A stretch of 51,276 nucleotides of DNA from Rhodospirillales bacterium (GTDB lineage Bacteria; Pseudomonadota; Alphaproteobacteria; BOG-932; Roseiterribacteraceae), in contig PLTD01000153.1 of assembly GCA_003165335.1 (NCBI GenBank), positions 1 through 51,276 of the forward strand. Reading direction: 5' to 3'. Shown piece by piece: positions 19,961 to 37,188 of the stretch. Numbering within the stretch: position 1 is the first letter of the stretch; each line of letters begins with the position of its first letter. Both the position numbers and the translations under genes were made by a program. The notes beneath the pieces were generated by a model, which made no database searches, was not told the DNA's origin, and was given only the letters and a program-made list of their open reading frames with translations.

Positions 19961-20821
19961 ATGACACAGTTCGAAATTGGTGACGGCGCAATCGAAGGAG
20001 CCGGCCCGCTACCAAAGCCGCCAACAATGGCCGTACATTTGGCGCTGGCCTGGAATGATTTCGATACCAGCCTGAGCAGTTGGCGTATGTGGCTGCTGCT
20101 CGGGATGAACGATATCCGTCAGCGTTATCGCCGGTCACGTTTAGGTCAATTTTGGATCACGCTTGCCATGGCGACGACCATCGTCTCTTTGGGCCTGCTC
20201 TATGCCTATTTGTTCAAACAACCCTTGGCTCAATATCTGCCTTACCTGGGAACCAGCTTTGTCGTTTGGGGGCTCTTGTCCAGCGTCGTCTTGGACTCAT
20301 GTTGGGTATTTATCAGCGCCGAGGGGTTTTTGAGGCAGGTGCCGCTTGCGAAATCCGTTTTTGTGCACCGTATGCTCGTTCGAAATGGCGTTATTTTTCT
20401 GCATAACATCATCATCTTGCCGCCGATCTATCTGATATTTGGCGTTCCCCTGGGCTGGACATTGATGCTGGCGTTTCTTGGAATCGCTCTAATCCTACTT
20501 AACGGCGTTTGGATCGGCCTTCTTCTTGGCACGATCTGCGCTCGCTTTCGCGATATGCCCCAGATCATCGCGAGCTTAATGCAAGTTGTATTTTACCTGA
20601 CACCGGTGATGTGGCGTCCGTCGCAATTGCCGCAACGGGTCAGTTGGTTGACTAACTTCAACCCGTTTCAGAGCTTTCTCGATATTGTACGGGACCCTTT
20701 GCTGGGCAACCTGCCGCCCCTGATTGCCTGGAAAGTGGCTGGTGCGGTCACGCTCGTTGGTTTTGCCGTGGCGACCCTGATTTTCTCGCGCTTTCGGGCG
20801 CGCATCGTTTATTGGCTGTAA
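19961..20821 (+). CDS. ABC-2 type permease for polysaccharide/polyol-phosphate export (Wzm/KpsM-like)
   Basis: Inner-membrane subunit of an ABC glycan exporter, 286 residues. After a hydrophilic N terminus the family motif around NDIRQRYRRSRLGQFWITL stands at about residue 45-65, followed by six hydrophobic segments; the FYLTPVMWRP segment and the late FNPFQSFLDIVRDPLLG loop are typical of Wzm/KpsM proteins. It is followed after 4 bp by its ATPase gene, so the two form one transporter. It would move a lipid-linked or otherwise finished glycan across the inner membrane, consistent with the glycosyltransferases and acyltransferases downstream. Confidence 0.9.
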   Translation: MTQFEIGDGAIEGAGPLPKPPTMAVHLALAWNDFDTSLSSWRMWLLLGMNDIRQRYRRSRLGQFWITLAMATTIVSLGLLYAYLFKQPLAQYLPYLGTSFVVWGLLSSVVLDSCWVFISAEGFLRQVPLAKSVFVHRMLVRNGVIFLHNIIILPPIYLIFGVPLGWTLMLAFLGIALILLNGVWIGLLLGTICARFRDMPQIIASLMQVVFYLTPVMWRPSQLPQRVSWLTNFNPFQSFLDIVRDPLLGNLPPLIAWKVAGAVTLVGFAVATLIFSRFRARIVYWL

Positions 20822-20825
20822 CCTT

Positions 20826-21572
20826 ATGGCATCCATCACTCTCGACCGCGTTACCGTCGACTTTCCGATCTACAACGCGAAAAAACGGTCGCTGAAATCC
20901 GAAATCTTCCGGCGTACTGTCGGCGGCCGCATTGAGGCAAACCAGGACAGCCGCGTGTCGGTAATGGCTCTGCGCGACATCAGCATGCAGATTAATGATG
21001 GTGACCGGCTGGGCCTCATAGGGCGCAACGGTGCCGGTAAGTCCACATTGTTGCGCGTTCTGTCCGGTGTGTACGAGCCGCCGATCGGGCGAACTGTGAT
21101 CAGTGGTACGGTTTCGTCTCTAACCGATATTGCGATGGGGATGGATCCAGAGGCGACGGGATATGAGAATATTCTGTTGCGCAGCGTTTTCCTGGGCGTG
21201 TCGGTTAAGCAAGCCCATGCAAATGTAGCCGAGATTGAGGAATTCACCGGGCTGGGCAATTTTCTCAAGCTGCCGATGCGCACCTATTCGAGCGGGATGA
21301 TGGTGCGGCTGGCCTTTGCCATCAGCACGGCTGTAACACCCGAAATTCTGATTATGGATGAGTTAATCGGGGCCGGCGATGCTGCTTTTTTTGCCAAAGC
21401 GGAGGAGCGGCTAAACCGTCTAATAGGAAGTACCCGCATCCTTGTGATCGCATCGCACGCGGACACCATGCTGCAGCGGCTTTGCAACAAAGCTGCGCTG
21501 ATGGATGAAGGAAGACTGCAGATGATCGGTCCTGTCGATGAAGTTCTTGCCGCTTACCAGGCGATGGTCTGA
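20826..21572 (+). CDS. ABC transporter ATPase for polysaccharide export (Wzt/KpsT-like)
   Basis: ATP-hydrolysing partner of the preceding permease, 248 residues. Walker A is GRNGAGKST, the signature is in the form YSSGMMVRLAFA typical of KpsT/Wzt, Walker B is EILIMDE and the switch His is in VIASHAD. It ends right after the nucleotide-binding domain, so it lacks the C-terminal carbohydrate-binding domain by which long Wzt proteins recognise a capped O-antigen. Substrate selection must therefore lie elsewhere, or export is not coupled to chain-end capping. The 158 bp after it hold no gene that I can support. Confidence 0.92.
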   Translation: MASITLDRVTVDFPIYNAKKRSLKSEIFRRTVGGRIEANQDSRVSVMALRDISMQINDGDRLGLIGRNGAGKSTLLRVLSGVYEPPIGRTVISGTVSSLTDIAMGMDPEATGYENILLRSVFLGVSVKQAHANVAEIEEFTGLGNFLKLPMRTYSSGMMVRLAFAISTAVTPEILIMDELIGAGDAAFFAKAEERLNRLIGSTRILVIASHADTMLQRLCNKAALMDEGRLQMIGPVDEVLAAYQAMV

Positions 21573-21730
21573 GATGTTTATCGGGCTATCGATACGTCGC
21601 GTGATCATGCCTTGATCGTCGAAAGATGTATGTCTAGGTTGCCGAACAAATAGTGCTGCACCATCGCGAGGCGGATACCACCGAAGCGGATGTATGTGCC
21701 GTAACGCTTGGAAATCGATAAGTCCATTAT

Positions 21731-23587
21731 ATGGATGAGGTAAAAGAACGTCAGATTGCCATGAGGTTTATTCTCCACTCAGAGATCGATGCAAATTCCA
21801 TACGAGAGAATTTAGGCAAGCCGGAATACAGCTATTATTTCGTGCTGGAGGCGTTTCGTCCTGTCCTTGAACTGTTGGGGCCGGTCACGCTAGTTCGACG
21901 TCCTGAGGAAGAGGTCGATACGATATTCGAAGCTTCCGCGGCGAAAAGTGAAAGCTGCGTCTTCATCTCGTTCTCACCACCGAACGCAGTTCCGCTTGAT
22001 CTCAAATGCCCGACCATCGTCGTTTTCGCGTGGGAGTTCAGCACTCTTCCCGATGGCGGGTGGGCTAATGCCGATCCGCGCGACGACTGGCGGTTAGTGT
22101 TCGCGAAGCTAGGCTTTGCGATCTCGCTGTCGACCTATACGGCGCAGGTCGTGAGGGCGGCTATGGGTGAAGATTTTCCGATCTTTGCGATCGCGGCGCC
22201 AGTGTGTGACCGTCTGCCTAGACCGGCTTTTCCCGTCGACTCAAGGCCCGTCATCCCGGCTTGCGAAGTCCTGATTCGCGGCACTGTGATCGATAGCGGC
22301 GACTATGCGCTTTCGCCAGACCAAGTGATTGGGCCGATTTTTCCACCGCCGTCGATAAGACCGACGCTCATGGACCTGGCGGCTGAGGAAATGGCCCCGG
22401 TATTGGCCGCGGCAGCCGCGAAGGCGGCAGCAGCCGAAGCGGCTGCAATCGCGGAGGCGGCTGCGGCAGAGGCGGCTGCAATCGCGGAGGCGGCTGCGGC
22501 AGATGCCGCAAGGATGGCTGCTGCTGCGGCAGCCGAAGCGGCAGCGGTGCTTACCATCATCGCGCAGCGCCGCAGGCTTCGCTACCGTCTCGCCGCGACA
22601 AAACGCTATGCCCTGGAATGGTACCGCGAGGTGATTCGGGATTTGCTGCCGCGCTGGCTGTCGCTCGGCATCGGCCGTGGGGGCGCGTTGGCGGAAATGG
22701 TCTATCGGCGCCTTTCCGGCTCGACACAGCCTCCATCGCCACCACCTCCACCTCCACCTCCACCACCACCGCCTCCTCCTCCTCCTCCTCCTCTTCGGCC
22801 ACCACCACCACCACCACCACCGCCGTCTGCTCCGCCATTGCGGGTGCGATTGGGGGGCGTGGTCTATACCTCGATGCTGAACCCCACCGATGGACGTAAA
22901 AACTGGCACGACATACTAACGGCGTTCTGTTGGGCATTCCGCGACGTCGAAGACGCGACGCTGGTGCTGAAAATGGTTAAGGGTGATCCGCACTCTTATC
23001 GGCGGGACCTGTTCCTGATTCTGGCGCGACTGTCACCATTCAAGTGCCGGGTCGTCACGATGGACGGGTTTCTCGAGGACGCCGACTATCGCCTGTTGAC
23101 CGAAGCCACGAGCTTTTACGTCAATGCGTCGAACGCTGAAGGTCTTTGTTTGCCGCTGATGGAATTCATGTGCGCTGGAAAGCCGGTGATAGCGCCGCGC
23201 CACACCGCGATGGCCGATTATATCGACGATACCGCCGCCTTCATCGTCGGCGCGACTCCCGAGCACAATGTCTGGCCAAACGACCCGCGGCACCTTTACT
23301 CCACAATGCGCATGCGCCTCCAGTGGGATACTCTGGTCGCCGCTTTCGAGGAGAGTTACCGTGTCGCGACGCACGCGCCCCAACGGTATGCGGACATGGG
23401 ACGCAACGCCGCCGCGATCATGAGCCGCTATTGTTCCGACGCGGTGGTGAAAGAACAACTGCGCATGGTCCTGGACCAGGTGGTTAAAGCGGGAGTGCGA
23501 CAGCAGGCGGAAGAGAGCAAGCCAGCGACCGCTAAGATTGTGGATCCGGGTTTGACCCCGGCCGTCGCAGAGCCGGAAGCAATATGA
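21731..23587 (+). CDS. Glycosyltransferase with Ala-rich and polyproline insertion
   Basis: 618-residue GT4-like glycosyltransferase, paralogous to the next gene. Shared parts are the N terminus (KPEYSYYFVLEAFRPVLE), VFAWEF, DWRLVF, then the C-terminal donor domain from about 370 (DGRKNWHDI, FKCRVVTMDGFLEDADY, and the EGLCLPLMEFMCAGKP E-x7-E motif). Between them (about 200-370) lies material absent from the paralog: an Ala/Glu helix with an 11-residue tandem repeat, a basic segment (RRRLRYRLAATKRY), and 18 prolines, Leu-Arg, then 9 prolines. The extra block could act as a spacer, coiled-coil or docking element. ATG 21761 aligns with the paralog's start and is a good alternative. It ends in an ATGA overlap with the next gene. 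Confidence 0.8.
   Translation: MDEVKERQIAMRFILHSEIDANSIRENLGKPEYSYYFVLEAFRPVLELLGPVTLVRRPEEEVDTIFEASAAKSESCVFISFSPPNAVPLDLKCPTIVVFAWEFSTLPDGGWANADPRDDWRLVFAKLGFAISLSTYTAQVVRAAMGEDFPIFAIAAPVCDRLPRPAFPVDSRPVIPACEVLIRGTVIDSGDYALSPDQVIGPIFPPPSIRPTLMDLAAEEMAPVLAAAAAKAAAAEAAAIAEAAAAEAAAIAEAAAADAARMAAAAAAEAAAVLTIIAQRRRLRYRLAATKRYALEWYREVIRDLLPRWLSLGIGRGGALAEMVYRRLSGSTQPPSPPPPPPPPPPPPPPPPPPLRPPPPPPPPPSAPPLRVRLGGVVYTSMLNPTDGRKNWHDILTAFCWAFRDVEDATLVLKMVKGDPHSYRRDLFLILARLSPFKCRVVTMDGFLEDADYRLLTEATSFYVNASNAEGLCLPLMEFMCAGKPVIAPRHTAMADYIDDTAAFIVGATPEHNVWPNDPRHLYSTMRMRLQWDTLVAAFEESYRVATHAPQRYADMGRNAAAIMSRYCSDAVVKEQLRMVLDQVVKAGVRQQAEESKPATAKIVDPGLTPAVAEPEAI
22437..22503 (+). repeat. 33-bp tandem repeat coding for AEAAAIAEAAA
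   Basis: Two near-identical copies of a 33-bp unit run in frame inside the glycosyltransferase gene, with a 30-bp identical block at 22441-22470 and 22474-22503. The period is 11 codons, so gain or loss of a unit keeps the frame. Flanking codons are also Ala/Glu-rich, giving a continuous predicted helix. Confidence 0.8.
22739..22825 (+). repeat. CCN triplet tract: 18 Pro, Leu-Arg, 9 Pro
   Basis: A triplet microsatellite of CCA, CCT and CCG codons: 18 prolines (22739-22792), CTT CGG, then 9 prolines (22799-22825). Slippage in threes would alter the linker length without breaking the gene. Translation through such a run is expected to depend on elongation factor P. Confidence 0.9.
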
Positions 23588-24888
23588 TCATCATCATCTA
23601 TTCCGAAACCTACAAAGGTGCGGTGGCCAAGCGGCTGGGTGAATCCGAATACAGCTATTATTTCGTGCTGAAGGAATACCGCCCGGTTCTTGAACGGCTT
23701 GGCATCGTGGTTGCGGTCGGCGATCCCGCCAACGAGGTTGACGCGCTCTATCGCAGCGCCGCCGCCCACGGCGAATCCTGCATCTTCCTGTCCTTTACGC
23801 CGCCCCATCAGACGCTGATCGATCTGGAGTGCCCGACGATCCCGATCTTCGCTTGGGAATTCGACACGATTCCCAGCGAAGTCTGGCACGGCGATGCGCG
23901 CAACGACTGGCGCATAGTGTTCGATAAGCTGGGCCGGGCGATAACGCATTCGGACTTCGCTGTTCGAACGGTTAAGGCGGCGATGGAGCAGGACTATCCG
24001 ATCGTGACCATTCCTGCGCCGGTTTGGGATCGTTTCGACGCTGTGCGGCAAAGAATTACGCCCTGCCCCATCTGCGCCGGAGTGGATATTAGCGTGATCG
24101 GAACCGTGGTCGACACGTTCGCGCTCGATTTTCAGGCCGAGGCACGACGGTTGCCAGCGCCGGCGGGCCCTGAGGCGCCCGCGCGCTTTACGCTGGACGG
24201 CGTCATCTATTGTTCGGTCTTCAACCCTCGGGACGGCCGCAAGAATTGGCATGACATGCTGTGCGCGTTCTGCCTCACGTTCCGCGAAAATCCGGACGCC
24301 ACGCTGGTGTTCAAGCTGACCCATCATGATCGCGCCCTGGCGTTCGAGCATATGTTGGAGACGATCTACCGGGTCTCGCCCTTCAAATGCCGGGTCATTC
24401 TCATCCTGGGTTATCTGGAGGAAGCCGATTACGAAAAAATGGTCGGCGCCACCAGCTATGCCCTCAATGCGTCGGCGGGCGAAGGGCAGTGCCTGCCGCT
24501 GATGGAATTCATGTCGGCGGGAAAACCATCGATAGCACCCCGAAACACCGCGCTGACCGATTATCTGAACGACGACAACAGCTTTCGGATCGCGTCGAGC
24601 CTCGAACCCTGGTGCTGGCCGCACGATCCGCGCCAGGCCTTCCGCACGCGACGGCACCGCATCGATTTCGCATCCCTGATGCAGGCTTACCGCGACAGTT
24701 ACGACGTCGCGAAAACCGATCCCGAGCGCTATCGGCTCATGTCCGAGCGTGCCAATCGCGATCTCGGGGCGCATTGCTCCCAAGAGTTGACCGAGGGTCG
24801 ACTGCGAGCATTTCTCGGGATCGAATCACCGTTTGCGGAGGCGAACAAGGCTCAAGCGCGCGTCGCGGCCGAAGACCTGATCACATGA
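23584..24888 (+). CDS. Glycosyltransferase (GT4-like), paralog of the preceding gene
   Basis: 434-residue cytosolic glycosyltransferase without the insertion seen in its neighbour. It starts directly with the Rossmann strand MIIIIYSETYKG and carries the same landmarks: SEYSYYFVLKEYRPVLERLG, FAWEFDTIP, DWRIVFDKLG, DGRKNWHDM, FKCRVILILGYLEEADY, and the donor-binding EGQCLPLMEFMSAGKP E-x7-E motif. Start overlaps the previous stop as ATGA and its own stop overlaps the next start the same way, so it is translationally coupled on both sides. A 24-bp stretch (23647-23670) is identical to 21824-21847, evidence of tandem duplication. Sugar and linkage are unknown. Confidence 0.87.
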   Translation: MIIIIYSETYKGAVAKRLGESEYSYYFVLKEYRPVLERLGIVVAVGDPANEVDALYRSAAAHGESCIFLSFTPPHQTLIDLECPTIPIFAWEFDTIPSEVWHGDARNDWRIVFDKLGRAITHSDFAVRTVKAAMEQDYPIVTIPAPVWDRFDAVRQRITPCPICAGVDISVIGTVVDTFALDFQAEARRLPAPAGPEAPARFTLDGVIYCSVFNPRDGRKNWHDMLCAFCLTFRENPDATLVFKLTHHDRALAFEHMLETIYRVSPFKCRVILILGYLEEADYEKMVGATSYALNASAGEGQCLPLMEFMSAGKPSIAPRNTALTDYLNDDNSFRIASSLEPWCWPHDPRQAFRTRRHRIDFASLMQAYRDSYDVAKTDPERYRLMSERANRDLGAHCSQELTEGRLRAFLGIESPFAEANKAQARVAAEDLIT

Positions 24889-26057
24889 CGGCGCCGGCTC
24901 AGGCTGTATCGTCCGGCAGGATCGCCGATATCGAAATGCTGCGCGGCATCGCCGTGATCTTCGTCCTGATCCAGCATGCGCCGGTCGTGTTGTTTCCCTG
25001 GCGGACCAACGATGATGGGCATCTTTATGTCTATTTTGGATTCTGGACGGGCGTCGATCTGTTCTTCGCGATCTCCGGATTCGTCATAGCGCGTAGCCTG
25101 CTGCCCACTTTGGAAGCGACCCGCGACAATACTTCGTTCTTTAACGCCACTTTGGCCTTCTGGGTTCGCAGGGTCTGGCGTCTATTGCCGTCGGCATGGC
25201 TCTGGCTGGCGGTCATCCTGTTCCTGGTCGAATTTTTTAACCGATCGGGCGCATTCGGCACCTTTCGCGGAAACTTCGAAGCCACTGTGGCATCCGTTCT
25301 CGACGTCGCCAATTTCCGAGTTCTGCTCGTTCTGATGACCGCCGAACACGGGGTGAGCTTTCCCTATTGGAGCCTGTCGCTGGAAGAGCAGTTTTATATC
25401 CTGCTGCCGATCTTGGTCTTCGTGTCGCGGCGGTGGTTTCCCTATATTCTGGCCGTCAGCATCCTGGCGCAATTATTTGTGACGCGCTTCGGCCCGGGAA
25501 CCACCGAATTCGGCAATCTGCTGAATGTCACGCGTAGCGACGCTCTGATGCTGGGCGTGCTGATCGCGCTCTGGAGCCGCCATCCGACCTATCGCCTGTT
25601 CGAGCCCGTTGCGTTGAAACAATGGCCGATCGCCGGTCCGGTCCTGCTGAGCCTTCTCCTCCTCTGTCTCGCCGCGTCGGGATCGACCCATCTTAACCTC
25701 GTCTCGTTTCTGGTCGGACTTGTCGCGCTGCTATCAGCTGCGCTGGTGCTGATCGCTTCATATGATGGGGATTATCTTTTACCGGGCAGCGCGGCGAAGC
25801 GGGTTATGGTGTGGGTCGGGAGCCGCTCCTACGCGCTTTATCTGATCCATATGCCGGCCTATCTATTTGCCCGCGAGATCTGGTTTCGGCTGGAACCGGC
25901 CGGGACGATATTCGGAGCGAACTATACGCTGCGCTTTACGCTGACCGCGCTCCCGATGCTCGTCGTGCTGGCGGATTTGAATTATCGTCTCGTCGAGACA
26001 CCGCTGCGCCGGCGCGGTGCGCGTATCGCCGCACACCTGGCAGAGCGTGCGGCATGA
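24885..26057 (+). CDS. Acyltransferase 3 (OafA/YrhL type), copy 1 of 3
   Basis: 390-residue multi-spanning inner-membrane O-acyltransferase that transfers acetyl or similar groups to sugars. Landmarks are IADIEMLRGIAVIFVLIQHAP (His of TM1), GVDLFFAISGFVIARSL, the basic segment WVRRVWRLLPSAW, and YWSLSLEEQFYILLP (key residues SLEEQFY). About ten hydrophobic segments are present and the SGNH domain of longer OafA proteins is absent. It begins at an ATGA overlap with the glycosyltransferase and ends at another with the second copy. It is closer to copy 3 than to copy 2. Likely decorates the glycan made by the adjacent glycosyltransferases. Confidence 0.92.
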   Translation: MTAPAQAVSSGRIADIEMLRGIAVIFVLIQHAPVVLFPWRTNDDGHLYVYFGFWTGVDLFFAISGFVIARSLLPTLEATRDNTSFFNATLAFWVRRVWRLLPSAWLWLAVILFLVEFFNRSGAFGTFRGNFEATVASVLDVANFRVLLVLMTAEHGVSFPYWSLSLEEQFYILLPILVFVSRRWFPYILAVSILAQLFVTRFGPGTTEFGNLLNVTRSDALMLGVLIALWSRHPTYRLFEPVALKQWPIAGPVLLSLLLLCLAASGSTHLNLVSFLVGLVALLSAALVLIASYDGDYLLPGSAAKRVMVWVGSRSYALYLIHMPAYLFAREIWFRLEPAGTIFGANYTLRFTLTALPMLVVLADLNYRLVETPLRRRGARIAAHLAERAA

Positions 26058-27307
26058 CGGCGGAAGACAGGATCGGTACCGCCAGCCCCGGCGTAGCCGT
26101 CAGACCAGGCGCCGAGATTCGGCCGGTTCCCGTGGCGGGCGGCCGAATCGCCGATATCGAAGTTCTACGCGCGATCGCGATTATCTTCGTGCTGATCCAC
26201 CATGCACGAGGCAACCTGATTACATGGCCCACGCCCGTATTCGACCGGCTGTACTCCTATCTGCAGTTTTGGCCGGGCGTTGACCTGTTTTTCGCGATTT
26301 CCGGTTTCGTGATTGCGCGCAGCCTCGTCCCGGCCCTGCGGCGCAGTGAAAACAGAACCGCTTTCATCAAGACCACCATTGCGTTCTGGATCAGGCGCGC
26401 CTGGCGGCTGCTGCCCTCGGCTTGGCTGTGGCTTGCATTGATTTTGATTGCGTCGGCGGCCTCAGGCGAAACGGGCCTATTCGGCAGTTTCAGAACCAAT
26501 TTCGAAGCGACGATCGCGGCTGTTCTCGACGTCGCGAATTTCCGGCTGGCGTCGTGCTTTATGCAGTATCCCTGCGGCAGCAGCTTTGTTTATTGGAGCT
26601 TGTCGCTTGAAGAGCAGTTCTACATCCTCTTGCCTATCGTGATACTGCTGGCGGGACGCCGACTAACAGTCTCGATCGGCATTTTCGTCGTTGTTCAATT
26701 TTTCATCCCGCGCATCGCGCCGATTCTGCAAATGCTGCGGACTGACGCTCTCCTGCTCGGCGTCCTGCTCGCGATTTGGAGCTCGGATGCCACCTACCGG
26801 CTCTGCGAGCCGCTCGTTTTGAAAAGGAGCGGTCTCGCGCGTTGGGCTGTTCTAATTATGCTCCTCGCGGGAATAGCGGCGCTCGGTTCCGACGATCTGC
26901 ATATCGTTCAGTTCCGCTACGGAATGATCGCTCTGCTGTCCGCCGTGCTCGTCATGATCGCGTCCTACGATCAGGATTACCTTTGGCGTGACAGCCAGGT
27001 AAAGCGGGTTTTTATATGGATCGGCAGTCGATCGTATGGACTCTATCTGATGCATGTGCCGCTCTACTATGTCACACGGGAAATTTGGTATCGGATCGAC
27101 GGGCGACTGCCGTCTTCCCGCATTGATGACCTGGGGATTCTCGCTACGGCGGCGGCCCTGCTTCTGTTGCTCAGCGAAATCAATTTTCGTGTGATCGAGG
27201 ATCCCCTACGGGCGCGGGGCGCGCGAATCGCCAGGCGATTTAGCGAACGCCCCTTACATCACAGCATTGCGGGCATCACGCGCACCACCGACTTGCTGGT
27301 AAAATGA
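26054..27307 (+). CDS. Acyltransferase 3 (OafA/YrhL type), copy 2 of 3
   Basis: 417-residue paralog of the flanking acyltransferases. A longer soluble start (about 30 residues) precedes IADIEVLRAIAIIFVLIHHAR; then GVDLFFAISGFVIARSL, WIRRAWRLLPSAW and YWSLSLEEQFYILLP follow in order. The region after the sixth hydrophobic segment diverges most from its siblings, and the C-terminal tail (RPLHHSIAGITRTTDLLVK) is longer. ATG 26054 overlaps the previous stop as ATGA; its stop overlaps copy 3 the same way. The divergence suggests a different acyl donor or acceptor position, which is inference. Confidence 0.92.
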   Translation: MTAEDRIGTASPGVAVRPGAEIRPVPVAGGRIADIEVLRAIAIIFVLIHHARGNLITWPTPVFDRLYSYLQFWPGVDLFFAISGFVIARSLVPALRRSENRTAFIKTTIAFWIRRAWRLLPSAWLWLALILIASAASGETGLFGSFRTNFEATIAAVLDVANFRLASCFMQYPCGSSFVYWSLSLEEQFYILLPIVILLAGRRLTVSIGIFVVVQFFIPRIAPILQMLRTDALLLGVLLAIWSSDATYRLCEPLVLKRSGLARWAVLIMLLAGIAALGSDDLHIVQFRYGMIALLSAVLVMIASYDQDYLWRDSQVKRVFIWIGSRSYGLYLMHVPLYYVTREIWYRIDGRLPSSRIDDLGILATAAALLLLLSEINFRVIEDPLRARGARIARRFSERPLHHSIAGITRTTDLLVK

Positions 27308-28533
27308 GCCGGCAGCTCGAAAAGACGGGATCGCAATACGCGCGCGGTGCCGGGCATGAATCGGCGAGCGCATCTCACGGGACAATTGTCGACATCGAAT
27401 TGCTGCGCGCCATCGCCGTGCTGTTTGTTCTTGTCGAACATGCCAGGATCAATCTCTTCACCTGGGTCGGCGGCGTGCATGAGCCCCTTTATGTCTATTT
27501 CGGCTTCTGGACGGGTGTCGATCTCTTCTTTGCAATCTCGGGCTTCGTCATTGCACGCAGCCTGTTGCCAAAGTTAGCCGCTGCCAACGACAGCACAGCG
27601 TTCTTTAACGCCGTGCTTGCCTTCTGGGTTCGGCGTGCTTGGCGTCTGCTCCCGTCGGCATGGCTCTGGCTCGGCATCATCATGCTGTTGGTGATCATCT
27701 TTAACAGGTCAGGCGCATTTGGAACATTCCGGGCCAATTTTGAAGGGACGATTGCCGCGATCCTGTATGTAGCCAATTTCCGGATCGTTCACGTGTTTTT
27801 GCGCGCCCCGACGGGTGCGAATTTCCCCTATTGGAGCCTCTCACTGGAGGAGCAGTTTTATATCTTGCTGCCGCTGGTTGTCTTCGCGGCCCGTCGTTGG
27901 CTGCCCTATGTCCTCGGAGCCGCGGTTCTGGCGCAGCTGTTTGTGCAGCGATCCGGCAACTTGGGTATCGGCCTGTTGCTCAATCAAATCCGCAGTGATG
28001 CTTTGCTACTTGGTGTTCTTATTGCGATCTGGAGCCGTCATGCCACATATCGCCTCTTCGAGCCGGTTGGTCTGCGTCAACATCCGCTTGTTAGCGTCAT
28101 AGTTCTGGCAGGCTTGGTGTTTGCGCTCGCCGCCGCAGGCTCAGAGGGTCTAAATCTGGTGCCTTTTCGGATCGGGCTCGTCGCTATCCTATCGGCGGCA
28201 CTAGTCCTGATCGCATCCTATGATCAGGACTATCTGTGTCCGAACGGTCCGCTCAAGCAAATCATGCTGTGGATCGGTGCGCGGTCCTACGCACTCTATC
28301 TGACCCACATACCGGCCTACCTCGCGGCACGGGAAATCTGGTTTCGGATAGAGCCGCCCGACACGGTTTTCGACAGCGCCTACGGTCTTCGTTTGGGCCT
28401 GACCGCGACAGTGCTGCTGCTGTTGTTTACGGAAGCGAATTATCGCTTCATCGAAGTTCCATTCCGCCGGCGCGGGGCGCGCATCGCCGAGCGTCTCGGT
28501 CGTCGTGTGGCCGCGTACCCGGCCGAACCATAA
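27304..28533 (+). CDS. Acyltransferase 3 (OafA/YrhL type), copy 3 of 3
   Basis: 409-residue inner-membrane O-acyltransferase. It has TIVDIELLRAIAVLFVLVEHAR, GVDLFFAISGFVIARSL, WVRRAWRLLPSAW and PYWSLSLEEQFYILLP in the normal order, and ends with the basic segment PFRRRGARIAERLGRRVAA also found in copy 1. Start is the ATGA overlap with copy 2. Eleven bases separate it from the methyltransferase gene, so the operon continues. With copies 1 and 2 it forms the largest acyltransferase run I can see in this window. Confidence 0.92.
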   Translation: MSRQLEKTGSQYARGAGHESASASHGTIVDIELLRAIAVLFVLVEHARINLFTWVGGVHEPLYVYFGFWTGVDLFFAISGFVIARSLLPKLAAANDSTAFFNAVLAFWVRRAWRLLPSAWLWLGIIMLLVIIFNRSGAFGTFRANFEGTIAAILYVANFRIVHVFLRAPTGANFPYWSLSLEEQFYILLPLVVFAARRWLPYVLGAAVLAQLFVQRSGNLGIGLLLNQIRSDALLLGVLIAIWSRHATYRLFEPVGLRQHPLVSVIVLAGLVFALAAAGSEGLNLVPFRIGLVAILSAALVLIASYDQDYLCPNGPLKQIMLWIGARSYALYLTHIPAYLAAREIWFRIEPPDTVFDSAYGLRLGLTATVLLLLFTEANYRFIEVPFRRRGARIAERLGRRVAAYPAEP

Positions 28534-28543
28534 GGAATCGGTC

Positions 28544-30271
28544 ATGTGGGAACGGTCAGCCGAAACGGACCACACTCTTGTCGGACTTCGAGACGTCCTC
28601 GACAGTGGCGGTTTGAACTATCAAACGGGGGAACTGCGGCCGGGGTTTTTAATCAGGGCCGACGATGTCGTGGTCGACGTTGGCTGTGGCGAAGGCAACG
28701 AAAGCCTGTTTTGTGCTCGACAGGGGGCTCACGTCATCTATGCGGACGCCGATCCCGATCAGATCGCCATCGCCAGCCGCAATCTGGAGGGCGCCGGCGC
28801 CCGTATCCTCACGCCGATCATCAGCGACACCAATCCGCTGCCCCTTCCGGACGGGGTTGCTTCGAAAGTCATCGCGGCTGAAGTCATCGAACATGTCGAC
28901 GATCCGGCGCAGTTTATCAGCGAATTGGTTCGGGTGGGGCGGCCCGGCGCGCAGTATTTTTTTGCGGTGCCGGATGCGGCGTCGGAAGAGCTGCAAAGGG
29001 GCTTGTCGCCGGATAGCCATTTTCAAAAGCCCAATCATATCCGCGTGATCGGGCGCGACGAGTTCGCCCGGATGGTCACCGATGCCGGGTTGGTGATTGA
29101 AGATCGCGGCTTCTATGGGTTTTATTGGACAGTCTGGTGGATGTTCTTCTGGATTTGCAGGGTCGACCTGTCCGCTCCGCACCATCCTCTGCTGGAAAGC
29201 TGGGCCCGCACCTGGAGCGCGCTGCTCGACACCCCGAACAGCGGCGATGTCAGGCGGGCGCTGGATGCGCTGTTGCCCAAAAGCCAATATATCGTGGCGC
29301 GCAAGCCCGGTGGCCTAGGTCCAGCGGCAATCGCGCCGGAGAAATCGGTCGCATCCGTTGCGGGAGGATTGCACATCGCATTTGCTGCCATCCGACGTTT
29401 CTTCTCGCCTCCACCGCAGGCCATCCCGCCGGTAGCTACGGCATTAACTCCGGAGCCTTTGCTTGCTCCGGTCGCCGTGGACGATCCGATCGATTCTGTA
29501 ACTGTCGGCCTGCACGATGCCGTTGAAAGCGGGTGGTTCAGGAACGATCAGCATGAACTGTTCAAAGGCTTTGCCATTCGACCGGAAGATGTCGTGCTTG
29601 ATGCTGGATGCGGCCAGGGCAACTATTCCGCCCTCTGCGGACAATGGGGGGCACATGTCATTTTCAGCGACACCGACCCCGATAACGTCGCCATCACGGA
29701 ACGACGGCTTGCCGAAACCAACGCACGCGCGATTACACCGATCGTTGGCGACGCTAGCCCTCTGCCGCTGGATGACGAGGTCGTCACCAAGGTCATCTCG
29801 ACCGAAGTGATCGAACATGTCGATGATCCCCGTCAGTTCCTGAATGAACTGGTGCGAGTCGGCAAGCCGGGGGCGCTCTATCTGTTGGCGGTTCCCGATC
29901 CCGTTCAAGAAGGCCTGCAACGGCGGTTGGCCCCGCCCGCATTTTTCCTGAAACCAAAACCTGGGGAGGGGACCATCCGCGGCCTCTCCAGCGGACATCT
30001 GCGAACAATCGGCCGCGAAGAGTTCGAAGAGTTGGTGACGCAGGCTGGGCTGGTGGTAGAGCAGCATCACTATGTCGGTTTTTACTGGGCGTTGTGGTTT
30101 GTGTTTTTCTGGGTCTGCAATGTCGACTTTTCGGCGCCCGGGCACGCGTTGCTGGCGCGTTGGGCGCGAACCTGGAAAATGGTCCTGGACGCGCCGGACG
30201 GGCACAGAGTTAAAGCCCCGTTCGACGCGTTTATGCCCAAAAGCCAGATCATCATCGCAAGAAAGCCATAA
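28544..30271 (+). CDS. Tandem double SAM-dependent methyltransferase
   Basis: 575-residue protein made of two homologous class I methyltransferase units. Unit 1 (about 1-260) has VVVDVGCGEGN and AAEVIEHVDDPAQF; unit 2 (about 320-575) has VVLDAGCGQGN and STEVIEHVDDPRQF, both with intact SAM-binding glycine motifs and an acidic residue after strand 2 (ADADPDQ, SDTDPDN). Each unit ends with the same aromatic-rich hydrophobic stretch (FYWTVWWMFFW and FYWALWFVFFW) and a PKSQ-I-ARKP tail. A Pro-rich linker joins them. The start ATG has AAGGA eight bases before. Likely methylates glycan sugars; two active units in one chain suggest two methylations or a pseudo-dimer. Confidence 0.85.
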   Translation: MWERSAETDHTLVGLRDVLDSGGLNYQTGELRPGFLIRADDVVVDVGCGEGNESLFCARQGAHVIYADADPDQIAIASRNLEGAGARILTPIISDTNPLPLPDGVASKVIAAEVIEHVDDPAQFISELVRVGRPGAQYFFAVPDAASEELQRGLSPDSHFQKPNHIRVIGRDEFARMVTDAGLVIEDRGFYGFYWTVWWMFFWICRVDLSAPHHPLLESWARTWSALLDTPNSGDVRRALDALLPKSQYIVARKPGGLGPAAIAPEKSVASVAGGLHIAFAAIRRFFSPPPQAIPPVATALTPEPLLAPVAVDDPIDSVTVGLHDAVESGWFRNDQHELFKGFAIRPEDVVLDAGCGQGNYSALCGQWGAHVIFSDTDPDNVAITERRLAETNARAITPIVGDASPLPLDDEVVTKVISTEVIEHVDDPRQFLNELVRVGKPGALYLLAVPDPVQEGLQRRLAPPAFFLKPKPGEGTIRGLSSGHLRTIGREEFEELVTQAGLVVEQHHYVGFYWALWFVFFWVCNVDFSAPGHALLARWARTWKMVLDAPDGHRVKAPFDAFMPKSQIIIARKP

Positions 30272-30279
30272 ATCGCTTT

Positions 30280-32640
30280 ATGTCAAAATTGATTGAAAAA
30301 GTGGGGGCGACCTCGGATGCGGGTAAAACTGTGCTCGCGCTCTTTCCTCTTCTCTACCTCGTTACTGCATTTTGGAAGCCGGCGCTGTTCGATCATAAGT
30401 CGCTGATTAACGGCGACGCGATCCTTCACGGTCTCGCACTTGTCGACCTGCAGGCACATTCGTTGGGTCATCTCGGACAATTGCTTTGGTCCGACAAAAT
30501 CTATGGCGGTCATCCTTTATTTGCCGAGGGGCAGGGCGCTTTTGCCGATCCCTTGAACATGTTTACGGCATGGATCGCCGCGCCCGTTTTTGGCTCGATC
30601 TACGCCATGAATCTATTTCACTTTCTGGCGATGATGTTGGCGGGCATCGGCGTTATGGGTCTTTGCCGCAGCTTGGGATCGAGCCGCGCCGCCGCCAGTT
30701 TCGCTTCGATTGCGGTGGTTTACTCGTCGATTTGGATCAGCGACGCGCAGAACCTGACGATCTCGGGCGCACTGGCGTGGGTTCCATGGACATTTTGGGC
30801 GATGGACCGGTGGTTGAAACAACCGACCGTCCGGTCTGCCATTCTGCTGGGTGGCGCGGTCGCCTCGCTGGTCCTCGCCGGATATCCGCAGGCGTTCCAT
30901 GGCGCAATCATGTACATATCCGCTGGCTTGATCACCATTCCATGCCAAACCCAAGCCAGACATGAATGGATCGCGAATTGGCGCAAGCGGCTAAGTACGG
31001 CGGCCATTGCCGTCCTGTTCTGCGCTGGCATCAGCGCGATCCAATGGTTGCCACTGCTTGAATTGACGGCGCTATCGCACCGCAGCGACGGCGTTAGCAT
31101 TTTCTTCAACTCGCCGATCGCGACATATTTTCGTGGATTCTTGTTTACTTGGCAGGGTTTGGACGCGTCGTCGGATTATTTCGCCGGAACGGGCAGTCTC
31201 CTCGTAACCGTCCTAGCATCGCTCGCCCTGGTCATCGGCCAGCCCGCGCGAGTCAAAGGTCATCTGATCTCCACGATTTTCGTTCTTCAGATGGGGTTCG
31301 AGCGAGGTTCGCCGCTGTTTCGACTGCTCTACGATCATCACATCATCCCTGGCTTGCGATATTTTCGTACGGTCCATCTCTATTTCGACATCGCGATTAT
31401 CGGCATGGCGGTGTTGGCCGCGTTTGCGATCGACGGGATCAGTCGGTGGATCACGACAGAATCGGGCCGCAAGCGCTTGGCCTGGGCGGCACCCACCAAC
31501 GGGATTCGTGTGAAGCTGGGGCTATTTGCCGTCATGTTGTGGATTTTGGTCGCGGTTTGGATGCGTCCTGCCGAAGGGCGGATGGTGTGCCTCGCGGTCG
31601 TGGTCCTTGCCGCGGTCGGCTCGATGTTGTTAATCCTCGCGCGACGGGGATCGCTCGTGCCGTTTCTAATGATCGCGTTGCTAATGGGTGAATGCCTGAA
31701 CCTCAGAGCACACAGCTTCCGTTTCTATGAAACCGCGTATGCCGGGAAACCGTCGTCGGTGACGGCGATAGAGGCAGTGGACGGCTGGCGCAATTACAAG
31801 CTGTTCGACGATTCGATCGCCAGCGCCTATGCCTTTACCGACTCCCGATCTCCGGCCTTACCCGATCGAATGCGGCGCATGATGGAATCGATCAGCGCCA
31901 TGACAAATTTGATGTGGGACCTGGGATCGTTCAACGCGGCGCTGGCGCTTCCCATGCAGCGACAGACCGTGGCCGAGAAACTGATGCGCGATGAGATTCG
32001 AGGGCAAACATCAAATCCGGCGGGCGCTCGTCTGATTGATCTGCTCGCGATCCGCTTTATTTCCGTCGATCGAGTGCCGGTCACGGCTGCATTCCGGTCA
32101 TTTTGGAGCGACCCTGCGCTAAACGCGCAAATCATGGAAAATACAGCGGCCCGGTCACGTTTCCAGCTTTACGCGAACCACGTTACCGTTGGTTCGGCCG
32201 ACGAGGCGATCGCGGCGCTTAAGTCTCTACAGTCTCCGACGCTGGTTATCGAAAACCCTCCGAACCTGCATCAGGTCGAACCGCTGGACGAGGGCGATGC
32301 CCTGGCTGACGTGAAATCTTATGCAAGTTTTAACGTCTTGAAAGCCACATCGACCCAATATCGCGTCGATATCACTGCAACGCATCCCGTGTGGTTCTTT
32401 ATCGCCGATGCCAACTACCCCGGCTGGAGAGTCACGCTCGACGGCAAGCCGGCGCCGCTGTTTAGCGCTCAGATGCTGGGTAAGGCTGTCGGTGTCCCAG
32501 TCGGCGACCACCGGCTGGAAATCCGCTTTGTCTCGATGACGTTTCGCTGGGGCATGGCAATTACTCTTATGTCGCTCGTTCTGATTGCACCGACATTTTT
32601 AGTTGCTCGCCGGCAACACAAGTACGGCTCAACGGTCTAA
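30280..32640 (+). CDS. YfhO-like multi-spanning membrane protein
   Basis: 786-residue inner-membrane protein resembling the YfhO family, which is related to GT-C glycosyltransferases that use lipid-linked sugars. An N-terminal helix is followed by a luminal-type loop (INGDAILHGL, GGHPLFAEGQGAF), then about a dozen hydrophobic segments to residue 480, and a soluble beta-rich region (about 500-740) with the family-typical PGWRVTLDGKPAP near the C terminus, followed by a last transmembrane helix. It follows the methyltransferase gene by 8 bp. A role in adding a sugar on the periplasmic side is plausible but unproven. Confidence 0.75.
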   Translation: MSKLIEKVGATSDAGKTVLALFPLLYLVTAFWKPALFDHKSLINGDAILHGLALVDLQAHSLGHLGQLLWSDKIYGGHPLFAEGQGAFADPLNMFTAWIAAPVFGSIYAMNLFHFLAMMLAGIGVMGLCRSLGSSRAAASFASIAVVYSSIWISDAQNLTISGALAWVPWTFWAMDRWLKQPTVRSAILLGGAVASLVLAGYPQAFHGAIMYISAGLITIPCQTQARHEWIANWRKRLSTAAIAVLFCAGISAIQWLPLLELTALSHRSDGVSIFFNSPIATYFRGFLFTWQGLDASSDYFAGTGSLLVTVLASLALVIGQPARVKGHLISTIFVLQMGFERGSPLFRLLYDHHIIPGLRYFRTVHLYFDIAIIGMAVLAAFAIDGISRWITTESGRKRLAWAAPTNGIRVKLGLFAVMLWILVAVWMRPAEGRMVCLAVVVLAAVGSMLLILARRGSLVPFLMIALLMGECLNLRAHSFRFYETAYAGKPSSVTAIEAVDGWRNYKLFDDSIASAYAFTDSRSPALPDRMRRMMESISAMTNLMWDLGSFNAALALPMQRQTVAEKLMRDEIRGQTSNPAGARLIDLLAIRFISVDRVPVTAAFRSFWSDPALNAQIMENTAARSRFQLYANHVTVGSADEAIAALKSLQSPTLVIENPPNLHQVEPLDEGDALADVKSYASFNVLKATSTQYRVDITATHPVWFFIADANYPGWRVTLDGKPAPLFSAQMLGKAVGVPVGDHRLEIRFVSMTFRWGMAITLMSLVLIAPTFLVARRQHKYGSTV

Positions 32641-32902
32641 CGGGAGTACAAATCCAATTCTGACCGCACGGAGATGTTGCGAAAACATGCGGTTCGCTGC
32701 AACTTATCCGCGCGTCATACGCAACGCTGGTCGTGAACATTTGACGCCGAGACTAACCAACGTGACGCGAATGATAATTTTATCGATAGGGCCGCGATTT
32801 TTGGGGAAAAATCAAAATTTGAGTGGTCGATCGGTCCCGCGGTTTTTGAGCAGCGTTGGCGTGGCCAAGAGGTTTCTGCCTTGCGTTGGAAAGCGTTAAC
32901 GC
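32641..32902. other. 262-bp gap with an AT-stem hairpin
   Basis: I see no gene here. GATTTTT (32796-32802) and AAAAATC (32807-32813) form a perfect 7-bp stem with a GGGG loop. The stem is all A-T except its closing G-C pair, so it is weak as RNA and could instead be a protein site. The gap probably separates the transcript of the last glycosyltransferase from the coupled genes upstream. Confidence 0.4.
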
Positions 32903-34453
32903 GTGGCTGTTAAACTCTGGATCGACGTTGAAGACCTGTTCGAATATGCACGGGGCAACCCGCGGCCGAGTGGTATCCAACGTCTTGCATTCGAGATTTA
33001 TAAGGCCTTGCAGGCACGACCCGACGCTGCCGACTTTGTGCGGTTCGTTCGGCATGACACGCCTCGCAACAGCTTCTACGTCGTTCAATGGGCTGAAGTC
33101 GTATCCTTGTTCTCGGGGTTAACCGAGTCTGTGCCGGAGCCCGCGCAACCGCTTCCGCCGGGCCCTATTCTTCCCCATGCGCCGTCGCGACAATTCATCC
33201 GCAAACTGGTTCACCGGCTGCCCTTTTCGATCCGCGCGCATGTGACCAACTTGATGCTCACCCATTCTTGGGCGTTGCACGCCTGGATCAATTTTTTCAA
33301 CGCAATGGCGCTTGGGGTGAAGATACGCCTGATGAGGCTTGTCCGGCGTGTACGACCGGCCCCCCAGCCAAAGCCCTCCCAGCAAACGTCGACTCCCTCA
33401 GAGCCCGAACTCGTGAAGCCCGAGTGCTTTGACGCCTTCGGTCGGGATGCTGCCCCAGACGACATTTTGCTTGTATTGGGATCGCCTTGGTCACATCCGG
33501 ATTATGCCAAGCTGATCCAAGCCCAACAGCGGCGGGGCCTCCGCTTTGCCTTGCTGGTCTACGATCTAATCCCTCTTCGGAGGCCGGAATGGTGCGATCG
33601 GGGTCTGGTGCGCGTCTTTCGAGCTTGGTTCGACACAGTTTTCCCTCTATGTGACCAAATATTTGCGATCTCGCGCGCGACTGCCGACGATGTTGAAGCC
33701 TACATGCTTGAGCGCAGCATCGCACTGCCTAGTCGGGTGCATCCTATCCCAATCGGCACCAGTTTCGGCGTTACTGATGCTCGCGTTTCGGCCCGGCGCA
33801 CCGCGCGGCTGCCGATACCTGGCAGCTATGCTCTCATCGTCTCGACGATCGAGGCTCGCAAGAATCACATTTTATTATTCCGCATCTGGCGCCGGATGCT
33901 GGAGGAAATGCCACCCGAACAGGTGCCGACCCTGATTTTCGCGGGGCGGGTTGGCTGGCTGGTCGACGACCTGATGCGGCAGATCGCCAACACGGACAAT
34001 TTGAACGGCAAGCTGATTCTAATAGAGAATCCGACCGACGCGGAATTGCTGGCGCTCTATGAAGGCTGCCAGTTCACGCTTTTCCCGTCTTTCTTCGAAG
34101 GATGGGGCCTGCCGGTCACCGAAAGCCTCGCTCTGGGCAAGCCATGCCTGACGTCCGACCGCACATCGCTGCCGGAATCCGGTGGCAATCTCGCGCGCCG
34201 GTTCGATCCCGACAATCTGCATGACGCGTACAGCGCGATCCGCGGTGTTGTCGAAGACCCCGCGGGTCTTGCCCGATGGGAGGCGCAGGTGCGCCGGGAA
34301 TTCAAGCCGGTATCCTGGTCGGTAACCGCCGAGGCTCTGCTGGCCGGGTTGGAACACCCGCTGGCCGTCCGCACCGAACCCAGCCTGCCGCAGATGGTGG
34401 AGGAAGAGGCCGATCTTTCGGCCCCGATCCGGCTCGGAATGCGGGCGCGATAA
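32903..34453 (+). CDS. Glycosyltransferase family 4-like protein
   Basis: 516-residue cytosolic glycosyltransferase. It opens with KLWIDVEDLFEYA and GIQRLAFEIYKAL, a start seen in GT4 enzymes of O-antigen and exopolysaccharide clusters. An unusually long middle (about 90-180), partly Pro/Ser-rich, precedes FALLVYDLIPLRRPEW. The donor domain has ALIVSTIEARKNH and the E-x7-E motif FFEGWGLPVTESLALGKP, followed by TSDRTSLPES. Start is GTG 32903. It follows the YfhO-like gene across a 262-bp gap and probably extends the same glycan. It is unlike the paralogous pair upstream. Confidence 0.88.
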   Translation: MAVKLWIDVEDLFEYARGNPRPSGIQRLAFEIYKALQARPDAADFVRFVRHDTPRNSFYVVQWAEVVSLFSGLTESVPEPAQPLPPGPILPHAPSRQFIRKLVHRLPFSIRAHVTNLMLTHSWALHAWINFFNAMALGVKIRLMRLVRRVRPAPQPKPSQQTSTPSEPELVKPECFDAFGRDAAPDDILLVLGSPWSHPDYAKLIQAQQRRGLRFALLVYDLIPLRRPEWCDRGLVRVFRAWFDTVFPLCDQIFAISRATADDVEAYMLERSIALPSRVHPIPIGTSFGVTDARVSARRTARLPIPGSYALIVSTIEARKNHILLFRIWRRMLEEMPPEQVPTLIFAGRVGWLVDDLMRQIANTDNLNGKLILIENPTDAELLALYEGCQFTLFPSFFEGWGLPVTESLALGKPCLTSDRTSLPESGGNLARRFDPDNLHDAYSAIRGVVEDPAGLARWEAQVRREFKPVSWSVTAEALLAGLEHPLAVRTEPSLPQMVEEEADLSAPIRLGMRAR

Positions 34454-34489: not shown

Positions 34490-36202
34490 GTGAAATATAA
34501 CGCTGCCGAAGCGACAAAGCTGGGCGTCGCCATCGAAGATCCGCTTGTTGTCGAAAATCCCGACGCATTCTCATGGGATGAGACCGCGGATCTGGTCGTT
34601 GTCGGGCTCGGAGGCGCTGGAGTGGCGGCTGCGCTAGAGGGGTTGGAGCGGGGGCTCAAGGTCACTGCCGTCGACCGCTATGAGGGCGGCGGATCCACAG
34701 CGGCCAATGGCGGCATTTTCTATGCGGGCGGTGGTACCAAGATTCAGAAAGAAGCGGGAGAAGACGATTCGCCCGAAGAAATGTACAAATATCTCAAGAT
34801 TGAGGTCGGTGACGTCGTCTCGGATGAGACGCTGCGCAAGTTTGTCGAGGAAAGCGTCGAAACGGTCGACTGGATTCTGGCCAATGGCGGCAAACTGAAC
34901 AGCAAAGTCTGGAAGAAAAAGGCGTCCTATCCGCCCTTGGCCTATTTTCTCTATCACCCCGACAATTCGCTGGTCGCCTCCTATGTCGCGCGCGCGAAGC
35001 CGGCGGCGCGCGGCCACCGCGCCCATATTAGCAACGGCAAGAAGGCCTGGGGCGTGGGAATCGGCATCTGGGGCCCGTTGCGCGATTCCGCGATGGCCAA
35101 GGGGCTGAACTTCCACCGCTATTCCGAGGCGCGGCAGCTCGCGCGCGATGGCACCGGCCGGGTGATCGGAGTCAAGATATTGTCGATCCCGGCGGGTTCG
35201 TCCGCCGCGGCGAAGTTCGGCAGCTTCATCAAGACGGCGGACCGGCTATTGGCGATGCTGCCGCCCACGTTACCCTTCGCGGCGATCACCATCGGGCTGG
35301 GCAGTTGGTACTTACGGCGCGCTGCCAAGATCGAGGCTGCGCACCGCCAGGAACGCTGGATTCGCGCAAAAGAAGGCGTCCTGCTCAGCACGGGCGGGTT
35401 CATTATGAACAATACGATGGTTCGCCATTTCGCCCCGACCTATGCGACGGGCATGCCGAACGGCACTTTGGGAGACCAGGGCCAAGGCATCATGATGGGG
35501 GCCGGTGCAGGTGGACAACTGGCGCTGATGGATAAGATCAGCGCCTGGCGCTTTATCAATCCGCCCAAGGCTTGGTCGGACGCCATAGTCGTCAATTCCA
35601 AAGGCAAGCGCATGATCGACGAGACGGTCTACGGCGCCAGCCTGGGCGAGCAGATCGGCGATCATAACGGTGGCGTCGGCTATATCATCTATGACAAGAA
35701 TCTGCGCAAACAGGCGTTCAAGCAGGCCCTTGACCCGCTGATCGTGCCGTTTCAACGCGATATCACGCTACTGAATCTGTTGTTCAACTATAAGAAAGCT
35801 GATTCGATCGACGAGTTGGCCCATAGGTCCGGCATCGACCCTTTAGGGCTTATCGATACCGTTGCCGCCTATAATCGCGGGGCCCGCGGCGAGCAGCCCG
35901 ATGCCTTCGGCAAACAGATGGACGACATGGTCCCGATCGTGGCGCCGCCCTTCTATGCGATGGATATCTCCATCAACAGTCGGTTTTTGCCATTGCCGGT
36001 TATCACCTTTGGCGGCTTGCGGATCGATGAGAGGTCGGGTCTGGTGTTGGATGAAGCGGGGCAGACGATACCCGGTCTCTATGCTGCCGGTCGCACGGCA
36101 GTGGGCGTCGCCTCGAACACTTATGTCAGCGGACTCTCCTTCGCCGATTGCGTATTCTCGGGCCGCCGCGTCGCCCGACATATTGCCCGCGCCAATCGTT
36201 GA
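34490..36202 (+). CDS. FAD-dependent oxidoreductase, KstD/fumarate-reductase flavoprotein family
   Basis: 570-residue flavoprotein of the FAD-binding 2 group. The N-terminal dinucleotide fold is DLVVVGLGGAGVAAALEG with EGGGSTAANGGIFYAGGGT; the C-terminal FAD segment is TIPGLYAAGRTAVGVASNTYVSG. The pattern is nearest 3-ketosteroid dehydrogenases and 3-oxo-5-alpha-steroid 4-dehydrogenases, though substrate residues cannot be judged by eye. An insertion with a hydrophobic stretch (PPTLPFAAITIGLGSWYL, about 255-275) may allow membrane contact. Start is GTG 34490 behind GGGGG. It heads a four-gene operon with a phosphotransferase-fold protein, suggesting breakdown or modification of a steroid- or terpenoid-like compound; that pathway is inference. 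Confidence 0.82.
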   Translation: MKYNAAEATKLGVAIEDPLVVENPDAFSWDETADLVVVGLGGAGVAAALEGLERGLKVTAVDRYEGGGSTAANGGIFYAGGGTKIQKEAGEDDSPEEMYKYLKIEVGDVVSDETLRKFVEESVETVDWILANGGKLNSKVWKKKASYPPLAYFLYHPDNSLVASYVARAKPAARGHRAHISNGKKAWGVGIGIWGPLRDSAMAKGLNFHRYSEARQLARDGTGRVIGVKILSIPAGSSAAAKFGSFIKTADRLLAMLPPTLPFAAITIGLGSWYLRRAAKIEAAHRQERWIRAKEGVLLSTGGFIMNNTMVRHFAPTYATGMPNGTLGDQGQGIMMGAGAGGQLALMDKISAWRFINPPKAWSDAIVVNSKGKRMIDETVYGASLGEQIGDHNGGVGYIIYDKNLRKQAFKQALDPLIVPFQRDITLLNLLFNYKKADSIDELAHRSGIDPLGLIDTVAAYNRGARGEQPDAFGKQMDDMVPIVAPPFYAMDISINSRFLPLPVITFGGLRIDERSGLVLDEAGQTIPGLYAAGRTAVGVASNTYVSGLSFADCVFSGRRVARHIARANR

Positions 36203-37185: not shown

Positions 37186-37188
37186 AAC

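Follow-up and report, generated by a model that had tools for sequence, protein, structure and literature searches.

A modification-rich glycan export cluster in a Rhodospirillales genome: a probable, modular O-polysaccharide locus with an exporter of the galactan lineage

Polysaccharide export that depends on an ATP-binding cassette (ABC) transporter has Wzm and Wzt as its hallmark and does not need wzx, wzy or a Wzz-type regulator. In the Pseudomonas common polysaccharide antigen (CPA, or A-band) locus, which consists of rmd-gmd-wbpW-wzm-wzt-wbpX-wbpY-wbpZ plus PA5455–PA5459, the single glycosyltransferases (GTs) WbpX, WbpY and WbpZ make the polymer, and PA5457–PA5459 are presumably methyltransferases (MTs) and an acetyltransferase. 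In P. aeruginosa the eight-gene CPA operon adjoins the five-gene operon PA5455–PA5459; formation of CPA requires PA5455 and PA5456, but neither PA5457 nor PA5458 (PMC5297154). Terminated O-antigens go together with a carbohydrate-binding module (CBM) on Wzt (PMC11231755); the CBM-less transporter of Klebsiella O1/O2 has relaxed specificity and allows added polysaccharide as well as side chains and acetate groups (PMC10629545). Here we describe a cluster of ten genes at positions 19961–34453 of a 51,276-nucleotide stretch of DNA from a Rhodospirillales bacterium (assembly GCA_003165335.1, contig PLTD01000153.1), the whole of which we call the window. We consider the cluster to be, with fair probability, an accessory, modular O-polysaccharide (O-antigen-like) locus dependent on an ABC transporter, whose CBM-less exporter tolerates heavy decoration. 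It is most likely a shuffled version of a known cluster type, in which a modification cassette like that of the Pseudomonas A-band is combined with a different, less selective exporter.

All ten open reading frames (ORFs) lie on the forward strand and were confirmed by an ORF check; matches to Pfam and NCBIfam families and, for GTb, its similarity to GTa bore out the gene list of an initial annotation of this DNA (an ABC-2 exporter, three GTs, three acyltransferases (ATs), a double MT and a YfhO-like protein):

19961–20821, + strand: wzm, ABC-2 polysaccharide export permease, 286 aa (Pfam ABC2_membrane, E 2e-12)
20826–21572, + strand: wzt, ABC export ATPase, 248 aa (NCBIfam galactan_ABC_ATP, 298 bits)
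21731–23587, + strand: GTa, GT4-like GT-B glycosyltransferase (weak GT4 match, predicted GT-B fold)
23584–24888, + strand: GTb, second GT of the tandem pair, 434 aa (GTa paralogue)
24885–26057, + strand: AT1, AT3-family membrane O-acyltransferase (PF01757, E 1e-24)
26054–27307, + strand: AT2, AT3-family membrane O-acyltransferase (PF01757, E 4e-23)
27304–28533, + strand: AT3, AT3-family membrane O-acyltransferase (PF01757, E 4e-18)
28544–30271, + strand: MT2, two fused S-adenosylmethionine (SAM) methyltransferase domains (two Methyltransf_11 stretches)
30280–32640, + strand: YfhO-like membrane protein, polytopic, probably a GT-C glycosyltransferase (weak PF09586)
32903–34453, + strand: GTc, GT4 glycosyltransferase, 516 aa (PF00534, E 2e-12)

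The link to O-polysaccharide loci comes from the tandem pair GTa-GTb and its neighbours. GTb is 43% identical to GTa and on its own has no Pfam match. Relatives of GTb were found in three genomes besides our own among 385 genomes of the class, and a search with a profile of the pair found it in five besides our own among 398 genomes of the phylum (the two sets overlap, and G334 was found in both); a plasmid search with GTb gave no match. GTa and GTb are adjacent in all eight genomes (our own and seven others) in which either was found, and this tandem arrangement with its recurring AT and MT neighbours is more than chance. In the four genomes from outside the class (G531, G718, G436 and G387) the pair and the same MT family are situated near wzm-wzt, accompanied in three by the same AT family; manC lies between the pair and wzm-wzt in three of the four, and gmd and an rmd-like gene are present in at least two. 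The locus of G531 runs GTa-GTb-AT-MT-rmd-like-gmd-manC-wzm-wzt(Wzt_C)-GT-GT-GT, and that of G718 runs GTa-GTb-MT-AT-MT-MT-rmd-like-gmd-manC-wzm-wzt(Wzt_C)-GT; G436 has GTa-GTb-MT-AT-MT, then manC-wzm-wzt-GT farther on, and G387 has GTa-GTb-MT followed by multi-domain GTs and wzm-wzt. Judged by their gene content, we regard these four as O-polysaccharide loci. In addition, an AT gene directly follows the pair in G334, and MT and GT4 genes stand beside it in G278.

The initial annotation recognised no described system of this composition, a statement that we revise, as the GTa-GTb-AT-MT cassette recurs elsewhere near gmd, rmd, manC, wzm and wzt, the gene content of the Pseudomonas CPA locus. The cassette is homologous between the window and G436, G531 and G718 and, by the order and domain content seen in those three, may correspond to the GT-GT-MT-AT-MT set of the PA5455–PA5459 type. 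That annotation had also made its proposal depend on the genes being conserved together: the full ten-gene set did not turn up in any other genome of the two samples (385 from the class and 398 from the phylum, overlapping), whereas the sub-blocks wzm-wzt-GTc (in G001, a genome of the same genus) and GTa-GTb-AT-MT (in the others) are conserved. Beside the O-polysaccharide locus of G718 (L075 3258–5812) we also observed an insertion-sequence integrase, a short acyltransferase fragment and a sulfotransferase gene.

The decoration genes of the window appear multiplied relative to those of G531. AT1, AT2 and AT3 are members of the AT3 (PF01757) family, with scores of 87, 82 and 66 bits (gathering score 31) and an R-x10-H on the first helix of each (RGIAVIFVLIQH in AT1); they are 52–64% identical to one another (AT3 and AT1, 64%) and share 50–55% identity with the one AT that G531 has (AT3, 55%). 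The single MT of G531 shares 57% and 54% identity with the two halves of MT2, which are 53% identical to each other and both retain the SAM motif; for the start of this gene ATG 28544 is favoured over GTG 28505. The YfhO-like protein has about ten hydrophobic segments and matches PF09586 over its last 80 residues only, at 20.5 bits (E 1.7e-4), which is below the gathering score of 28.5. Its only full-length relative (36% identity) is in G334, on another contig than the GT pair, and shares the I-x-G-D-A of the first loop, in which Asp46 is the conserved acidic residue. AT3 enzymes move acyl groups across the membrane (PMC9833829), and YfhO-type GT-C enzymes use an undecaprenyl-phosphate sugar donor (PMC8035078). 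These gene families support the earlier description of a modification-rich glycan export cluster, and the product is probably both methylated and acylated.

The exporter differs in lineage from the cassette's usual partner. A Wzm-type permease and a Wzt-type ATPase are coded together, as in ABC-transporter-dependent polysaccharide systems, and the lack of wzx, wzy and a Wzz-type regulator is expected because this pathway uses none of them; their absence, which the initial annotation read as a sign of a small product, is therefore no such sign. The curated cut-offs of the galactan export equivalogs NF050108/NF050109 are reached by neither subunit (Wzt, 298 of 400 bits for galactan_ABC_ATP; Wzm, 260 of 380 bits for galactan_ABC_perm). 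The nearest solved relatives are 9qfx_A for Wzm (E 1.7e-61) and 9qhw_C/9qfx_C for Wzt (E 6e-75); the entries of the 9qfx family are labelled RfbE/O-antigen transport, and we take the family to be mycobacterial from the RfbD/RfbE names. No Pfam match to the carbohydrate-binding domain Wzt_C (PF14524) was found in the 248-aa window Wzt, which thus does not have the C-terminal CBM of terminated (WbdD/CBM) O-antigen systems; PF14524 is present in the Wzt relatives of G531 and G718. On its sequence, the window Wzt belongs to the galactan-exporter lineage, a lineage other than that of the Wzt accompanying GTa-GTb elsewhere. Scanning the genome collection with Wzm gave distant relatives only (≤47% identity), with other neighbours. 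Two further wzm-wzt pairs are present in our own genome (contig C18, 7876–9584, and contig C15, 1–1055), and Wzm proteins about 40% identical to that of the window occur in G002, a second genome of the same genus, and in the sister genus, where both of the genomes sampled have one.

GTa has an AlphaFold model with a mean predicted local distance difference test (pLDDT) score of 70, whose best PDB matches are the GT-B enzymes GlgM, PimB' and HepE. Between its two GT-B domains is an insert of about 180 aa (window 22300–22840). It comprises an Ala-rich helix, whose coding DNA has 15/33-bp repeats (22409–22503), a conserved amphipathic segment (RYRLxxTKRxALEWYREAxxDLLPRP) that also occurs in G355 and G334, and a stretch of prolines (22739–22821). 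This insert could be a membrane-binding or partner-binding module, or a length ruler.

Genes for other steps are found elsewhere in the genome. The initial statement that there are no sugar-nucleotide genes is correct for the cluster and incorrect for the genome: contig C32 has a gmd that passes TIGR01472 (426 bits, cut-off 415), followed by a gene that shares 39–40% identity with the rmd-like genes in the G531 and G718 loci. Three proteins of the Wzy_C/ligase family are also coded, and by family membership these could include the O-antigen ligase. The KpsC/KpsS family (PF05159) is absent from the genome, and a Group 2 capsule (KpsC/S, Kdo linker; Kdo, 3-deoxy-D-manno-octulosonic acid) was rejected on that ground.

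Within the genus, one genome has the cluster in part and another lacks it. In G001 (65% complete) the orthologues of wzm, wzt and GTc are contiguous, without the seven genes between them (Wzm 65% identity; GTc 611 bits), and are flanked by a peptidase M24 gene and sarcosine-oxidase-like genes; comparison of the G001 and window spacers for an insertion point gave no significant similarity. G002 (97% complete) is syntenic with the window on both flanks and lacks the cluster, having a gap of about 270 bp between folD and the gene for a flavin adenine dinucleotide (FAD)-dependent oxidoreductase. In the window a histidine kinase gene precedes the cluster, and the G002 gap resembles the start region and the last ~27 codons of this gene (scores 42 and 56, shuffle maxima 35 and 47). 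Since the gap keeps this similarity, the kinase is probably ancestral at the site and the glycan cluster is probably the unit that differs, by gain here or by loss in G002. The G002 sequence itself (L038, contig C292, ~14845–15112) appears to be a remnant of a hybrid histidine kinase.

The layout of the cluster only partly agrees with its earlier description as one strand with mostly ATGA overlaps: the strand is as stated, and the overlaps were overstated. Four-base overlaps occur at four of the nine junctions (GTa/GTb, GTb/AT1, AT1/AT2 and AT2/AT3), three junctions have gaps of 4–10 bases, and two have large gaps (wzt-GTa, 158 bp; YfhO-GTc, 262 bp). A promoter and terminator scan found fewer sites than in shuffled sequences and is uninformative on transcription units. 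The GC content and third-position GC of the cluster match those of the flanks, and a foreign origin as judged by composition was rejected. The FAD-dependent oxidoreductase gene at 34490 (FAD_binding_2 family) is part of a separate block that is kept in a congener. This block (34490–38784) further encodes an APH-family phosphotransferase and a protein weakly matching DUF7065; it seems to be catabolic and to have no relation to the glycan cluster.

We propose a route in which the sugars, the order of steps, the acceptor, the ligation and the type of acyl group are our suggestions. Synthesis or elongation of the glycan by GTa, GTb and GTc would take place on the inner side of the membrane, with undecaprenyl pyrophosphate as the primer, from sugars that are probably GDP-mannose-derived 6-deoxy sugars (D-rhamnose type) made by genes elsewhere in the genome. 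MT2 would O-methylate sugars in the cytoplasm, and Wzm-Wzt would export the lipid-linked chain, accepting variable decoration because a Wzt without a carbohydrate-binding domain should require no particular chain end. Once in the periplasm, the chain would be acylated, probably acetylated, by AT1–AT3, and it may receive a side-branch sugar from the YfhO-like protein, with an undecaprenyl-phosphate sugar as donor; its attachment to lipid A-core would fall to an O-antigen ligase encoded elsewhere in the genome. As to how the combination arose, we tentatively put forward an exporter swap, which we think possible yet rather doubtful: a CPA-type cassette, found elsewhere with an end-recognising CBM-type Wzt, would have been joined to a CBM-less exporter of the galactan lineage, after which the decoration genes, released from end recognition, would have multiplied to give three ATs, fused MTs and an additional YfhO-like enzyme. 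We hypothesize further that in such a swap chain length would come to be set by the long Ala-rich/poly-Pro insert of GTa.

The O-polysaccharide assignment draws on the gene families, the recurrence of the modules, the missing CBM, the gmd, rmd-like and ligase-family genes in the genome and the lack of KpsC/KpsS. Several observations weigh against it. None of the ten genes of the cluster codes for an initiating phosphoglycosyltransferase, a ligase, a multi-domain polymerase or a sugar-nucleotide enzyme, and the rmd assignment rests on similarity, no equivalog model having been passed. PA5455–PA5459 were likened through the order and domain content of G436, G531 and G718, not by protein sequence. 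In G355, G334 and G278 there is no wzm or wzt inside the region fetched around GTa-GTb, and as the window exporter is not that of GTa-GTb elsewhere, any function shared with those glycans is via the cassette only. The structure model of the YfhO-like protein (mean pLDDT 34) is too poor to establish a fold.

Another arrangement would be two units at one site, a minimal wzm-wzt-GTc and an inserted cassette from GTa to the YfhO-like gene that decorates either that glycan or the polymer of another locus, such as that of the C18 wzm-wzt. The contiguous G001 genes without the cassette are consistent with this, as are the only two large gaps, which border the cassette, the separation of GTa-GTb from wzm-wzt in G355, G334 and G278, and the other wzm-wzt pairs on C18 and C15. 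However, the dissimilar spacers do not reveal an insertion point, and the position of all these genes in line with the exporter on one strand points to a shared use; we consider such a division unlikely. The product might instead be small, an oligosaccharide or glycolipid that bears acyl and methyl groups, with one sugar per GT, exported by Wzm-Wzt. For three ATs and two MT domains there are only three GTs, all of them single-module, and neither a multi-module polymerase nor an enzyme acting as chain-length ruler is recognisable, yet the exporter is in a long-polymer galactan lineage, the cassette is elsewhere found in O-polysaccharide loci, and the CPA polymer is itself made by single GTs; this we judge to be quite improbable. 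A capsule or extracellular polysaccharide without lipopolysaccharide linkage could use the same export route, since Wzm/Wzt-like transporters also serve capsules and galactans, and the cluster does lack a ligase gene. Because KpsC/KpsS are absent it would not be a Kdo-linker capsule, and the genome has ligase-family proteins; we regard this explanation as very improbable.

Taking the cluster as an O-polysaccharide locus, its value lies in a link for the GTa-GTb pair, previously unannotated and now tied to O-polysaccharide loci across the phylum, and in a testable exporter-swap idea, not in a new class of system. It offers a test case for whether loss of the CBM from Wzt permits heavy O-antigen decoration. 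It also illustrates loci assembled from exchangeable blocks, as one congener has a three-gene core and another has no cluster at the same site.

The window shares with Pseudomonas CPA a tandem GT pair with an AT3 acyltransferase and methyltransferase(s), Wzm/Wzt export and GT4 enzymes, and the genome likewise has gmd and an rmd-like gene, though on another contig than the cluster. We do not claim it as a member of the CPA family, as it has neither local rmd, gmd and wbpW/manC, nor a CBM-type Wzt (its Wzt being without Wzt_C and of another lineage), nor three GTs WbpX, WbpY and WbpZ, GTc alone following wzt and the cassette; moreover, its AT is triplicated, its MTs are fused and a YfhO-like gene is added. 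Klebsiella O1/O2 galactan export resembles it in a CBM-less Wzt, the exporter there being tolerant of side chains and acetate, but the GTs of the window differ and the cluster has no glf or galactofuranosyltransferase genes. To the YfhO/CsbB/GtcA type of multi-component transmembrane glycosylation it is similar in a polytopic protein with a YfhO-like C-terminus and a conserved acidic first-loop residue, although the match is below the Pfam gathering score and the cluster has no CsbB/GtrB or GtcA/GtrA partner. By sequence, the solved structures nearest to the two exporter subunits are those of the RfbD/RfbE galactan exporter, presumably mycobacterial (9qfx and related entries), from which the window differs in host, cell envelope and glycan, its proteins being under the NCBIfam galactan equivalog cut-offs.

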